64,000 bases of DNA from Flavobacterium pokkalii (lineage in GTDB: Bacteria; Bacteroidota; Bacteroidia; Flavobacteriales; Flavobacteriaceae): positions 62,001 to 126,000 of the forward strand of contig NZ_NASZ01000002.1 of assembly GCF_014596575.1 (NCBI RefSeq). Direction: 5' to 3'. Below the pieces are notes generated by a model. The model did no database searches. It was given only the letters and a program-made list of their open reading frames with translations, and had not been told where the DNA came from. Position 1 is the stretch's first letter, and each line of letters begins with the position of its first letter. Positions 33,364 through 36,195 of this stretch are shown here, piece after piece. The position numbers and the translations under genes are program-made.

Positions 33364-33807
33364 ATGAAAAAATCCTTGTTTGTTTTTGCGTTGTTTTTGA
33401 TTTCTTTTTCAAATTGGGCACAAAATGCTAGTATTGCTAAAGAAGAAAAAGTGGTCGCTGACAGAGTAGAAGCTTTGCGCAAAGCTTTAATCGATCCAAC
33501 TGCTGAAAGTTTGAAATCCCTAACTTCAAAAGATTTAAGTTACGGACATTCCAGTGGAGTGCTTCAGGATCAAAAAGTGTTTATCGAAAAACTGATGAAC
33601 GGCGAATCGGATTTTGTGACGATTGAATTCCAAAATCAAAGCATTCAAATTAGCGGAGATGTTGCTGTTGTAAGGCATAATTTGGCGGCGCATACTAAAG
33701 ACAGCGGTGTGGACAAGGATATTAAAATAGGAATTATGTTGGTTTGGCAAAAACAAAAAGGAAAATGGTTGTTGATAGGTCGTCAGGCGTTTAAATTGCC
33801 ATCATAA
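33364..33807 (+). CDS. Secreted NTF2-like (DUF4440) protein
   Basis: This 147-aa protein has a signal peptide (KKSLFVFALFLISFSNWAQ) and an NTF2-like cone fold: EKVVADRVEALRKALIDPTAESLKSLTSKDLSYGHSSG, then FVTIEFQNQSIQISGDVAVVRHNL and IGIMLVWQKQKGKWLLIGRQAFK. The DUF4440 branch includes unknown periplasmic proteins and small-ligand binders. It starts 2 nt after the aminotransferase and is co-transcribed with it, but a metabolic link is not evident. Confidence 0.83.
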   Translation: MKKSLFVFALFLISFSNWAQNASIAKEEKVVADRVEALRKALIDPTAESLKSLTSKDLSYGHSSGVLQDQKVFIEKLMNGESDFVTIEFQNQSIQISGDVAVVRHNLAAHTKDSGVDKDIKIGIMLVWQKQKGKWLLIGRQAFKLPS

Positions 33808-33829
33808 GAAGTTAAAAAAGAATAAATAA

Positions 33830-33868
33830 AAATCCCAAATTATGAAGAAGATAGTTTGGGATTTTTTA
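33830..33868 (+). terminator. Terminator of the aminotransferase operon
   Basis: AAATCCCAAA pairs with TTTGGGATTT over a 15-nt loop (stem from 33830 to 33864) and continues into T residues. It also faces the convergent DUF3037 gene and may work in both directions. Confidence 0.78.
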
Positions 33869-33873
33869 TTGGT

Positions 33874-34257
33874 TTAGAGTACTAATTCCTGATATAATTT
33901 TTCGAAAGTCTGATCCAAATTGCTACTAAAACCCGAATGTGGTCTGGAGGTTTGTATACTGGAACTTTTTACAGCTGTAAGCCATCTAAAACGCTCGTCT
34001 TTTTCCAATTGAGCAATTGGTCCTGCACTTTTTTTGCCTTCGCAAATAGCCACAAAAGAATCCAGATTCGTTTTGAGTTGGTCCAAATCAAATTCTTCGC
34101 AAAAAAGGCGAATTTTTTTTGCTGGAATTTGATACTGAATACGTAAAAATTTTTGACGTTTGCAGTAAAGCATCAATCCTACATTGATAAATTCTTCGCG
34201 TTCTACTTTAGGTACTATACGAATAACTGCATATTCATACAAGTGTTGTTCGTGCAT
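33874..34257 (-). CDS. DUF3037 protein, partner of the HipA-like kinase
   Basis: This 127-aa protein has the DUF3037 pattern: YEYAVIRIVPKVEREEFINVGLMLYC at the N-terminus, IPAKKIRLFCEEFDLDQLKTNLDSFVAICEG in the middle, and FRWLTAVKSSSIQTSRPHSGFSSNLDQTFEKLY at the C-terminus. No catalytic motif is known. It overlaps the upstream kinase gene by 23 nt, so the two are translationally coupled. DUF3037 genes recur next to HipA-like kinase genes in many bacteria (from memory), which suggests a shared task, possibly substrate or regulator of the kinase (inference). Confidence 0.85.
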   Translation of the reverse strand: MHEQHLYEYAVIRIVPKVEREEFINVGLMLYCKRQKFLRIQYQIPAKKIRLFCEEFDLDQLKTNLDSFVAICEGKKSAGPIAQLEKDERFRWLTAVKSSSIQTSRPHSGFSSNLDQTFEKLYQELVL

Positions 34258-35023
34258 CTTGAGCTTGTTTTAGGAATATTTCGGCGTTCTTTAAACGCAT
34301 ACTTAAAAATTGAAAATAAACGGCTTTGATTGCTTCGGCTGTTATCGTTTGATCATCCCATTGTAACCAGTCTTCCGGAATTTGATTTACAATTTCCTTG
34401 AGAAAAGTGTCGTTTAAGATAGCGGTAAATTCCTGATGTGCTTCATCCAGTCTTGAAGCCTTTGGTAATAGAACATGGTCTTTAATTAAAGCAAACGGAG
34501 TTACAGCAGTTTTTTCCCAGTTAGTCCAGGAATGATGAAAATAAAAAGAAGCGCCATGGTCTATTAACCAAAGTTCTTTTTTCCAAATTAAGAGATTAGT
34601 GTTTTTAAAAGTTCGGTCAACATTGGTAATAAAAGCATCTAGCCAAACAATTTTTGATGCTAATAATGCCTCACAATCATTGGCAGCTGCATCATAGGTA
34701 ATTGCTCCTGATAAATAATGCAATCCTAAATTTAATCCCTGACTGAATTTCAATAAATCCTGAATTTCTTCATCAGCTTCAGTTCTTCCAAAAGCTTCAT
34801 CCAATTCAGCAAAAACTAATTCAGGAACCGGAAGCCCAAGGAACTTAGCGATTTGACCACCTAAGAATTCAGCAATTAAAGCTTTTACACCGTGACCAGC
34901 ACCTCTGAATTTTAATACATATTTAAAATCGTCATCTGCTTCTGCCAGAGCAGGTAACGAGCCCCCTTCCCGAAGTGGTGTGATGTAACGGATAACGTTT
35001 ACAGTTCGTAAATTTGAAATCAT
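34235..35023 (-). CDS. HipA-like kinase-domain protein
   Basis: This 262-aa protein resembles the kinase core of HipA without the N-terminal HipA subdomain. Candidate active-site residues are Lys38 (FKYVLKFRGAGHG), the catalytic loop FITNVDRTFKNTNLL with Asp136 and Asn141, and metal-binding Asp155 (LWLIDHGASF). They suggest a live phosphotransferase. No HipB antitoxin gene is next to it; instead DUF3037 overlaps its 3' end. It is shorter than HipA (about 440 aa). The substrate is unknown. A minus-strand -7 box (TATCTTTG, complement of 35043-35050) precedes it. Confidence 0.82.
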   Translation of the reverse strand: MISNLRTVNVIRYITPLREGGSLPALAEADDDFKYVLKFRGAGHGVKALIAEFLGGQIAKFLGLPVPELVFAELDEAFGRTEADEEIQDLLKFSQGLNLGLHYLSGAITYDAAANDCEALLASKIVWLDAFITNVDRTFKNTNLLIWKKELWLIDHGASFYFHHSWTNWEKTAVTPFALIKDHVLLPKASRLDEAHQEFTAILNDTFLKEIVNQIPEDWLQWDDQTITAEAIKAVYFQFLSMRLKNAEIFLKQAQDARTTLV

Positions 35024-35155
35024 AAAAAGAAAATCTTAAAAACAAAGATAGCTAAAATTCCAAAAGTTAATTTTGATAGGACAATTGTGTTGAAATAAAA
35101 AATCCCCACAAACATAAGTTCATGAGGATTCTTTATATAATTACTGAAATCTAAT

Positions 35156-35172
35156 CCCGATAACTATCGGGG
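35156..35172. repeat. Short palindrome CCCGATA..TATCGGG downstream of fabD
   Basis: CCCGATA (35156-35162) and TATCGGG (35165-35171) are complementary with a 2-nt loop. This sequence is a frequent intergenic palindrome in Bacteroidota (from memory). It lies 19 nt beyond the fabD stop. Confidence 0.55.
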
Positions 35173-35190
35173 CTGATGACTGTGTACTAT

Positions 35191-36063
35191 TTAAGCATTC
35201 GCTGTAGCCGCTTCTTTATTGATTTTTCCAATTAATCCTGTTAATACTTTTCCAGGACCAACTTCTGTAAACAATGTAGCTCCGTCAGCAATCATTTGTT
35301 GTACTGATTGTGTCCATTTTACAGGAGCAGTCAATTGGATGATTAAGTTTTTCTTGATTTCTGCTGCATCCGAAACGGCATTTGCAGTTACATTTTGATA
35401 GACAGGGCAGATAGGAGTAGAGAAAGTAGTTGCTTCGATAGCAGCTGCTAATTCTTCTCTTGCAGGCTCCATCATTGGTGAATGGAAAGCACCACCAACA
35501 GGTAATAATAAAGCACGTTTAGCACCCGCTTCTTTCATTTTTTCGCAAGCTAATTCTACTGCTTTGAATTCTCCTGAAATTACTAATTGACCCGGACAGT
35601 TATAGTTAGCAGCAACTACAACTCCGTCGATAGCAGCACAAACTTCTTCTACTACATTGTCAGCTAATCCTAAAACAGCAGCCATTGTTGAAGGTGTAAT
35701 TTCGCAAGCTTTTTGCATTGCTAAAGCTCTTTGAGAAACTAATTTTAATCCGTCTTCAAAAGACAAAGCGCCATTGGCAACCAAAGCTGAAAATTCACCT
35801 AAAGAGTGTCCTGCAACCATTTCAGGATTGAAATCTTCTAAAGTTTTGGCTAAGATTACTGAGTGTAAAAATACAGCCGGTTGAGTAACTTTAGTTTCTT
35901 TTAATTCTTCTGCTGTTCCTTCAAACATGATGTCTGTGATGCGGAAACCTAATATTTCGTTTGCTCTTTCAAACAGTTCTTTTGCTAAAGGTGAATTCTC
36001 ATATAAGTCTTTACCCATTCCTGTAAATTGAGCTCCCTGACCCGGAAATACGTATGCTTTCAT
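35191..36063 (-). CDS. fabD: Malonyl-CoA:ACP transacylase
   Basis: The protein has 290 aa from the ATG at 36063 (MKAYVFPGQGAQF). The frame stays open upstream through a repeat element, but only the ATG gives the family start. It loads malonyl units onto acyl carrier protein for fatty acid synthesis. The active site is Ser87 in GHSLGEF and His194 in GGAFHSPMM, with Arg112 in SQRALAM binding the malonyl carboxylate. The length is normal. No other fab gene is adjacent. Confidence 0.94.
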   Translation of the reverse strand: MKAYVFPGQGAQFTGMGKDLYENSPLAKELFERANEILGFRITDIMFEGTAEELKETKVTQPAVFLHSVILAKTLEDFNPEMVAGHSLGEFSALVANGALSFEDGLKLVSQRALAMQKACEITPSTMAAVLGLADNVVEEVCAAIDGVVVAANYNCPGQLVISGEFKAVELACEKMKEAGAKRALLLPVGGAFHSPMMEPAREELAAAIEATTFSTPICPVYQNVTANAVSDAAEIKKNLIIQLTAPVKWTQSVQQMIADGATLFTEVGPGKVLTGLIGKINKEAATANA

Positions 36064-36080
36064 ATTTTTTAATTTAAAAA

Positions 36081-36109
36081 TTTGCCCTTCGACTGCGCTC
36101 AGGGTGACA
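36081..36109 (-). repeat. REP-like intergenic repeat in the fabD leader
   Basis: The minus strand reads TGTCACCCTGAGCG followed by CAGTCGAAGGGC, a well-known type of Bacteroidota intergenic palindrome. It lies 18 nt upstream of the fabD ATG, downstream of a -7 box (TACTTTTG, complement of 36144-36151), so it would be transcribed in the fabD leader. Confidence 0.65.
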
Positions 36110-36195
36110 TTATTTAAAGATTGAAAATTAGTCAATCGGGATGCAAAAGTACTATTTTTTTAGGATTTTTTAAGAATCATAAATTTTGAGAAAAA

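Follow-up and report, generated by a model that had tools for sequence, protein, structure and literature searches.

The question raised by this locus is whether a small HipA-like kinase and the DUF3037 protein encoded next to it form one functional module and, if so, what role DUF3037 plays in it. The locus lies within a 64,000-nt stretch of DNA from Flavobacterium pokkalii, the whole of which is called the window here. The first-pass annotation had described two overlapping genes constituting a two-gene system without an antitoxin. Both open reading frames proved to be real and to lie at the positions given there, and they share 23 nt (34235-34257). The features of the pair are as follows.

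34235..35023, minus strand: HipA_2 kinase of 262 aa with an ATG start, assigned by PF20613, PDC-M66A, conserved residues and a structure model
33874..34257, minus strand: DUF3037 protein, short form, of 127 aa with an ATG start, assigned by PF11236, PDC-M66B, a HipD profile match and a model
34235..34257, minus strand: 23-nt coding overlap of the kinase and DUF3037 genes, with the same relation of the two frames in 80 of 80 named loci (the best 80 of at least 585 relatives)

We suggest that the pair is probably a short-form relative of the HipAD system, in which the kinase would be harmful when free and would be held inactive by DUF3037. This type of gene pair is already known under the names PDC-M66, DS-6 and HipAD; the first-pass annotation mentioned neither these names nor the distinctness of the short form. 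Based on Pfam, the kinase belongs to HipA_2 (PF20613, E 1.6e-22, 80.4 bits at a cut-off of 27) and its partner to DUF3037 (PF11236, E 4.2e-44, 150 bits). With PADLOC, the kinase matched PDC-M66A (E 1.9e-29) and its partner matched PDC-M66B (E 1.6e-14, confined to profile positions 3-128 of 281), the two components of a single candidate defence system. For annotation, this calls for caution, since the short form covers less than half the length of the PADLOC profile for the long partner. Both families are included in PHROGs without a function (phrog_3162 and phrog_5137), so phage versions exist. The NCBIfam search assigned no family to the kinase and gave just one meaningless match for DUF3037 (E 0.15). 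The HipA_2 match spans residues 12-233 of 262 and no further Pfam domain was detected in the kinase, in agreement with the earlier claim that the HipA N-terminal domain is absent; the best Shewanella HipA match aligns to the kinase model from chain residue 71 onward only.

The kinase contains the expected landmarks, namely a Gly-rich segment R18-E-G-G-S-L-P24, K38, E52, D136/N143 and D155. The Gly-rich segment, whose S22 does not vary among 81 short-type kinases, would occupy the position of the HipA Gly-rich loop. In an alignment of 41 kinases of the short- and long-partner types, K38, D129, N134, D136, R137, N143 and D155 were invariant in all 41. The residue pattern proposed from the first reading therefore stands for K38, D136 and D155, while its Asn141 should probably be replaced by N143. 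In a second alignment (30 short-type and 16 long-type kinases), Asn was found at position 143 in 46 of 46 proteins, and at position 141 in 30/30 short-type and 4/16 long-type kinases (Lys in 11 and Ala in 1 of the latter). Thus, Asn141 appears to be a residue of the short clade, and N143, rather than N141, is probably the family-wide catalytic Asn and the better candidate for metal binding. A divergent short-type kinase (L121:2182-3618) is encoded by a 478-aa frame with HipA_2 at residues 230-363 only and about 230 extra N-terminal residues.

The AlphaFold2 model of the kinase (pLDDT 90.3) was closest to CtkA of Helicobacter pylori (Z 15.8, rmsd 3.2, 210 residues, 13% identity; Foldseek E 3.2e-5), followed by type II PI4-kinase (Z 14.6), HipT (Z 11.7) and HipA (Z 11.3, chain residues 71-429). 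These matches point to a HipA-superfamily core without the HipA N-terminal subdomain. It should be noted that the greater nearness of the model to CtkA and type II PI4-kinase than to HipA counts against a HipAD-like reading. A profile built from 41 kinases also found PI4-kinase type II among the PDB sequences (E 2.9e-5), and the single kinase sequence gave chance-level matches alone (She2p, E 0.07). By this likeness, the kinase could modify a lipid or another small molecule, and we regard this as very improbable. The profile match is limited to positions 117-196, i.e., to the shared catalytic core, CtkA scored higher in the structural comparison, and HipT and HipA, which are protein kinases of the same superfamily, were not far behind.

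The DUF3037 protein was also modelled with confidence (pLDDT 94.2). Among solved structures, Foldseek gave a best E of 0.43 with no match at E <= 0.001, VIA-align a best Z of 3.1, and the profile search against PDB sequences a best E of 0.27, with spike and H-NS fragments. The predicted structure is thus without a recognisable solved fold, which does not in itself prove a new one. A HipB- or HipS-like fold for DUF3037 was considered and set aside, as the Foldseek, VIA-align and PDB profile searches were all read as no match; a HipS-like chain was absent among the matches listed for the model and the profile, although a missing match is no exclusion. Seventeen positions, Y9, R13, P16, R20, E21, E22, F23, N25, G27, R89, R91, W92, S98, Q102, S104, G109 and L121, were invariant in 81 of 81 short DUF3037 proteins. 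The motifs E-E-F-x-N-x-G, F-R-[WY] and Q-x-S recur in the alignment with phage HipD and may therefore represent a shared working core. A plant paper (PMC6711988) uses the name DUF3037 (IPR022542) for a domain found in RST1 and in human focadhesin, which may or may not belong to the same family.

The functional reading leans on the published relatives. According to the passages available from PMC12548924, the HipA-like kinase of Retron-Sda1 is required for defence against phage Bas51, whereas the HTH gene, the ncRNA and the RT activity are dispensable; deletion of DUF3037 is toxic, and deletion of HipA just abolishes defence. The authors regard the kinase and DUF3037 as a system that stands on its own, and they mention PDC-M66 and DS-6. 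In the part of PMC13092281 that was available, a DS-6 kinase mutant no longer gave defence; a complex of the kinase with DUF3037 was predicted by AlphaFold3 with an ipTM of 0.76-0.79, and a DNA contact more weakly (0.67). In the DS-6B partner, DUF1829 is part of the C-terminal half, and this protein was modelled on DNA; DS-6 was renamed HipAD with reference to Brenes and Laub 2025. The record of Escherichia phage PhiR5_1 (PV340545.1) contains a HipA toxin of 249 aa and a HipD antitoxin of 275 aa between cI and kil. The DUF3037 alignment matched this HipD over its residues 7-125 of 275 (hhalign probability 95, E 4e-8), and the kinase alignment matched the phage HipA (probability 97.7, E 2e-12), with 27% identity over 83% of the window kinase. 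Together with PF20613/PF11236 and PDC-M66A/B, these hhalign matches count in favour of the HipAD-like reading, as do the Retron-Sda1 and DS-6 mutants and the predicted AlphaFold3 complex in the passages seen. In addition, HipA-family kinases have been described in five 'Gratiaviridae' gut phages (PMC8008677, seen in part), a further setting in which phages carry HipA kinases.

Since DUF3037 behaves like an antitoxin in Retron-Sda1, the one relative where its gene was deleted (PMC12548924, available passages), the description of the system as one that lacks an antitoxin is probably wrong. The companion proposal, that DUF3037 replaces HipB as the partner in a defence module, fares better: the pair is a two-gene module, and by analogy the published relatives support it (PMC12548924 and PMC13092281, both seen in part). 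It is also conceivable that DUF3037 serves as a substrate of the kinase, the other option named in the first-pass annotation, or as its activator, and not as its inhibitor. The constant pairing and correlated evolution described below are silent on this role, and the deletion effects reported for Retron-Sda1 in those passages of PMC12548924, toxic for DUF3037 and limited to loss of defence for HipA, follow an antitoxin pattern, which makes such a role improbable.

We propose the following scheme for the HipAD-like module. DUF3037 would bind the small HipA-superfamily kinase and keep it inactive, and the overlapping genes are probably co-translated, which would match the supply of inhibitor to that of kinase. 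Upon a trigger (phage infection or some other stress), the kinase would be released, phosphorylate a host target and stop growth. The scheme presumes the same behaviour for the short and the long form, and the kinase-dependent defence and the toxicity without DUF3037 are carried over by analogy from the relatives in PMC12548924 and PMC13092281 (available parts).

The short form differs from these relatives in several respects. Like HipAD/DS-6/PDC-M66, it consists of a HipA_2 kinase gene followed by a DUF3037 gene with overlapping ends, and the invariant catalytic residues are the same. Unlike HipD with its 275 aa, the short partner has 127 aa and is without the second, C-terminal half (275-300 aa in all in the long form; about 150 aa are missing relative to HipD), and its kinases form a separate group. 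Owing to the missing half, we do not file the short pair as a full HipAD member. In a midpoint-rooted tree, the 30 kinases with a short partner (29 from a set of 89 genomes, the window included, and one from a Streptomyces plasmid; L113 and L114 were left out, as the profile gave no kinase) formed one group with modest support (0.644). This group and the long-type kinase L111, which sits on a very long branch, were separated at 0.948 from the remaining 15 of the 16 kinases of the long type, including the phage HipA. The short-kinase profile scored 374-491 bits for short kinases, 286-315 bits for the divergent L119-L121 and 18-67 bits for 15 long ones. Based on these sequence comparisons, the short pair appears as a separate branch of the HipAD type, which is new here. 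No paper treating the short form apart was recognised among those listed in full-text searches, although it may appear in supplementary material, for instance in the file on DUF3037 neighbourhoods that accompanies PMC12548924. Among the papers found, none reports a test of the short form, and the tests concern long forms as far as the passages show; this, with the lack of the C-terminal half, counts against the HipAD-like reading. In the phage HipD (L266:3729-4556), Pfam detected DUF3037 and, at E <= 0.1, no DUF1829; compared with DS-6B, where DUF1829 is present, this suggests that HipD proteins may differ from one another in their C-terminal half.

The pair was also compared with two other HipA systems. 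In HipBA, hipB lies 5' of hipA. The window pair shares with HipBA a kinase core of the same superfamily and, by analogy, a neighbour in a neutralising role; unlike HipBA, its kinase is without the HipA N-terminal domain, DUF3037 lies 3' of the kinase gene, and the adjoining genes encode DUF3037 and FabD but no HipB helix-turn-helix protein. HipBST has a small HipT kinase without N-subdomain 1 and a non-HipB inhibitor, HipS, acting in trans (PMC10627512, passages available). The window kinase is likewise small and resembles HipT in its model. HipS corresponds to the HipA N-subdomain 1, a likeness that did not turn up for DUF3037 among the matches listed, and the window pair has no third gene.

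To describe the linkage of the two genes, 150 Flavobacterium genomes (that of the window included) were analysed. DUF3037 was found in 90 and HipA_2 in 92 of them. The 92 DUF3037 places comprised 88 short ones, one per genome, and 4 long ones with open frames of 292-301 aa. A HipA_2 kinase lay within 1.2 kb of 88/88 short and 4/4 long places, and no solitary short DUF3037 was found among the 88 places of these 150 genomes. The co-occurrence of the pair, for which the first-pass annotation had proposed a check, is therefore complete on the DUF3037 side within the genus. On the other side, 11 of 103 HipA_2 places were without an adjoining DUF3037 match (e.g., G133:C1:1909340, G112:C1:547625, G078:C1:289166 and G123:C1:2275014), so HipA_2 kinases can pair with other or unrecognised partners. 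In a phylum sample of 395 genomes, DUF3037 was found in 87, HipA_2 in 96 and both in 84; DUF3037 alone occurred in 3 (all of the long form) and the kinase alone in 12. The short pair occurs across Bacteroidota.

A scan for named loci gave at least 597 stretches and at least 585 relatives in bacterial genomes, the best 80 of which were analysed. In 80 of these 80, the kinase gene was upstream of DUF3037. The overlap ranged from 11 to 140 nt, was 23 nt in 45 of the 80 and always equalled 2 modulo 3, these lengths resting on a mechanical choice of the first start. The closest named DUF3037 relative among the 80 was that of Flavobacterium seoulense (85%). One locus (L263) carried a Bacteroidota-like pair on a contig labelled as a Paenibacillus MAG, which may reflect transfer or a binning error.

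The short form also differs from HipAD in its apparent absence from viruses. In 2.9 million viral contigs, no relatives of the short DUF3037 or of the short kinases were found, and a single phage-HipA query found 34; DUF3037 patterns of the same kind recovered at least 585 relatives in bacterial genomes. A tblastn search of 50,697 phage records with the DUF3037 protein gave no match, and the kinase gave 5, every one below 60% identity. The viral absence counts against the HipAD-like reading, but it is suggestive only, because hosts are unevenly represented in viral collections and the scans depend on a conserved stretch. Among 72,556 plasmids, the kinase had 11 matches. Two were from Bacteroidales (62-64% identity) and had DUF3037 annotated next to them (384 nt in the copy inspected), three were from actinomycetes (38-41% identity), with a 131-aa DUF3037 in the inspected Streptomyces globosus plasmid, and six were weaker.

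Signals of a separate transcription unit were found on both sides of the pair. TAnnTTTG is the -7 element of Bacteroidota promoters.

35043..35050, minus strand: TATCTTTG, fitting the TAnnTTTG -7 element, 27 nt before the kinase start
35095..35136, minus strand: intrinsic-terminator-like hairpin with a T-run, separating fabD from the kinase gene (-21.5 kcal/mol, z -6.5)
33828..33866, both strands (found on plus; z -4.5 on minus): terminator-like hairpin directly 3' of DUF3037, common to the converging DUF4440 gene
35191..36135, minus strand: fabD, acyl transferase gene, the upstream neighbour; context outside the module, marking the variable slot in which the pair sits

Among the best 80 of at least 585 named loci, a TAnnTTTG element was present within 110 nt upstream in 49, vs. 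5.2 expected from mononucleotide shuffles. Read-through from fabD is unlikely owing to the strong T-run hairpin between the genes. A sigma-70 promoter scan was set aside, as it gave 4 sites vs. 7.0 in shuffles. As judged from the nucleotide sequence, the pair has its own promoter- and terminator-like signals. The hairpins and the -7-like element, the linkage in 88/88 places, the invariant K38, D136, N143 and D155 and the correlated distances given below (r 0.84) all count in favour of the HipAD-like reading.

Further evidence concerns the site and the inheritance of the pair. Of 20 other Flavobacterium loci, 4 had the fabD site of the window. A second set of neighbouring genes recurred in 8 of the 20 (9 carried some of them) and a third set in 4, so the short pair occupies at least three different neighbourhoods. 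For 16 Flavobacterium genomes without the pair after fabD, taken from 24 searched, a wider context was inspected: 14 had the order fabD, variable stretch, degT, waaA; degT was not found in the other 2 of the 16. The stretch from fabD to degT/waaA (window 33364-36135; loci L293-L308) is a variable slot across Flavobacterium which holds either the pair or other genes (by eye, a galE-like epimerase, an MFS-like transporter and IS3-like fragments), its borders being kept in 14 of 16. In a close relative (G025, FabD 97% identical), neither family was found anywhere in the genome, and other genes were present at the site.

Protein distances among 61 genomes (three divergent short genomes left out) were correlated with r 0.84 for kinase-DUF3037, 0.75 for kinase-rpoB and 0.60 for DUF3037-rpoB; none of 999 permutations reached any of these values, and the kinase-DUF3037 correlation given rpoB was 0.74. 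It should be noted that linked genes have a history in common, which by itself could yield the kinase-DUF3037 correlation; we count this against the favoured explanation. The tree groups mostly by family, with transfers (e.g., G329 of family f1 beside G305 of f5), and the branch of the window sits with species distant by rpoB. Strictly vertical inheritance as part of the core genome was rejected in part, given the 4 of 20 loci at the fabD site, the transfers and the G025 genome. The kinase had a median dN/dS of 0.031 (79 sequence pairs) and DUF3037 one of 0.076 (92 pairs, range 0.02-0.42); over the 19 genome pairs in which all three genes could be compared, the medians were 0.062, 0.065 and 0.029 for kinase, DUF3037 and rpoB, respectively. 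These values indicate purifying selection on both genes and a weaker constraint than on rpoB. Taken with the transfers, the site changes and the absence from G025, this selection suggests that the pair is a kept cassette that comes and goes.

The same data bear on the possibility that the pair is a domesticated signalling module, in which the kinase phosphorylates a normal host protein, DUF3037 is its constant subunit or sensor and not an antitoxin, and the capacity to kill or defend has been lost. We consider this doubtful. It would fit the presence of the pair in 88 of 150 species-level Flavobacterium genomes, with one short DUF3037 each and the kinase always adjoining, as well as the DUF3037 frames free of stop codons, the low dN/dS, the kinase distances roughly tracking rpoB (r 0.75), the lack of viral relatives in 2.9 million contigs, the own promoter- and terminator-like signals and the absence of restriction-modification genes among 120 Flavobacterium neighbours. 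However, the pair is absent from 62 of the 150 genomes, lies in at least three neighbourhoods, shows clear transfers between families and is missing from the close relative G025, which has other genes at the site, and on these grounds it looks like an accessory cassette.

The neighbouring genes of the pair are unlike a defence island, which counts against the HipAD-like reading. PADLOC (E <= 1e-15) assigned the 120 neighbour proteins of 20 Flavobacterium loci to 15 families of 1-2 proteins each, including mad3, mad8, DpdF, IetA, PDC-S31, DrmC, TRIP13 and AriA, none of them restriction-modification. Most of the PADLOC models named probably also match ordinary helicases, AAA proteins and the like. 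For 120 neighbours in 20 other short loci, the first 25 of 62 families had one protein each, again with no restriction-modification. Among 90 neighbours in 17 long loci, with pair borders set by a rough rule, 4 matched a type I methyltransferase. A type I restriction methyltransferase-like gene lies near each of the long-form loci L106, L110, L114 and L117.

A tentative further reading, to which we give a minor chance, is that a non-viral HipAD branch has turned into a chromosomal growth-control switch in Bacteroidota and some actinomycetes, with the 127-aa DUF3037 alone serving as both inhibitor and trigger sensor. If so, the C-terminal half of phage HipD would be an add-on gained for prophage life. 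The HipAD relatives tested came from a phage or prophage and from a retron locus (PMC12548924 and PMC13092281, in the passages seen). Being far commoner in the genus sampled (88 of 92 DUF3037 places) and the more compact of the two versions, the short form is a natural place to ask about the role of DUF3037 by itself, the target of the kinase and the need for the C-terminal half of HipD. On the Streptomyces globosus plasmid (L267:3040-4181), the short pair lies near a beta-ketoacyl synthase gene, directly 5' of a crotonyl-CoA carboxylase/reductase gene.
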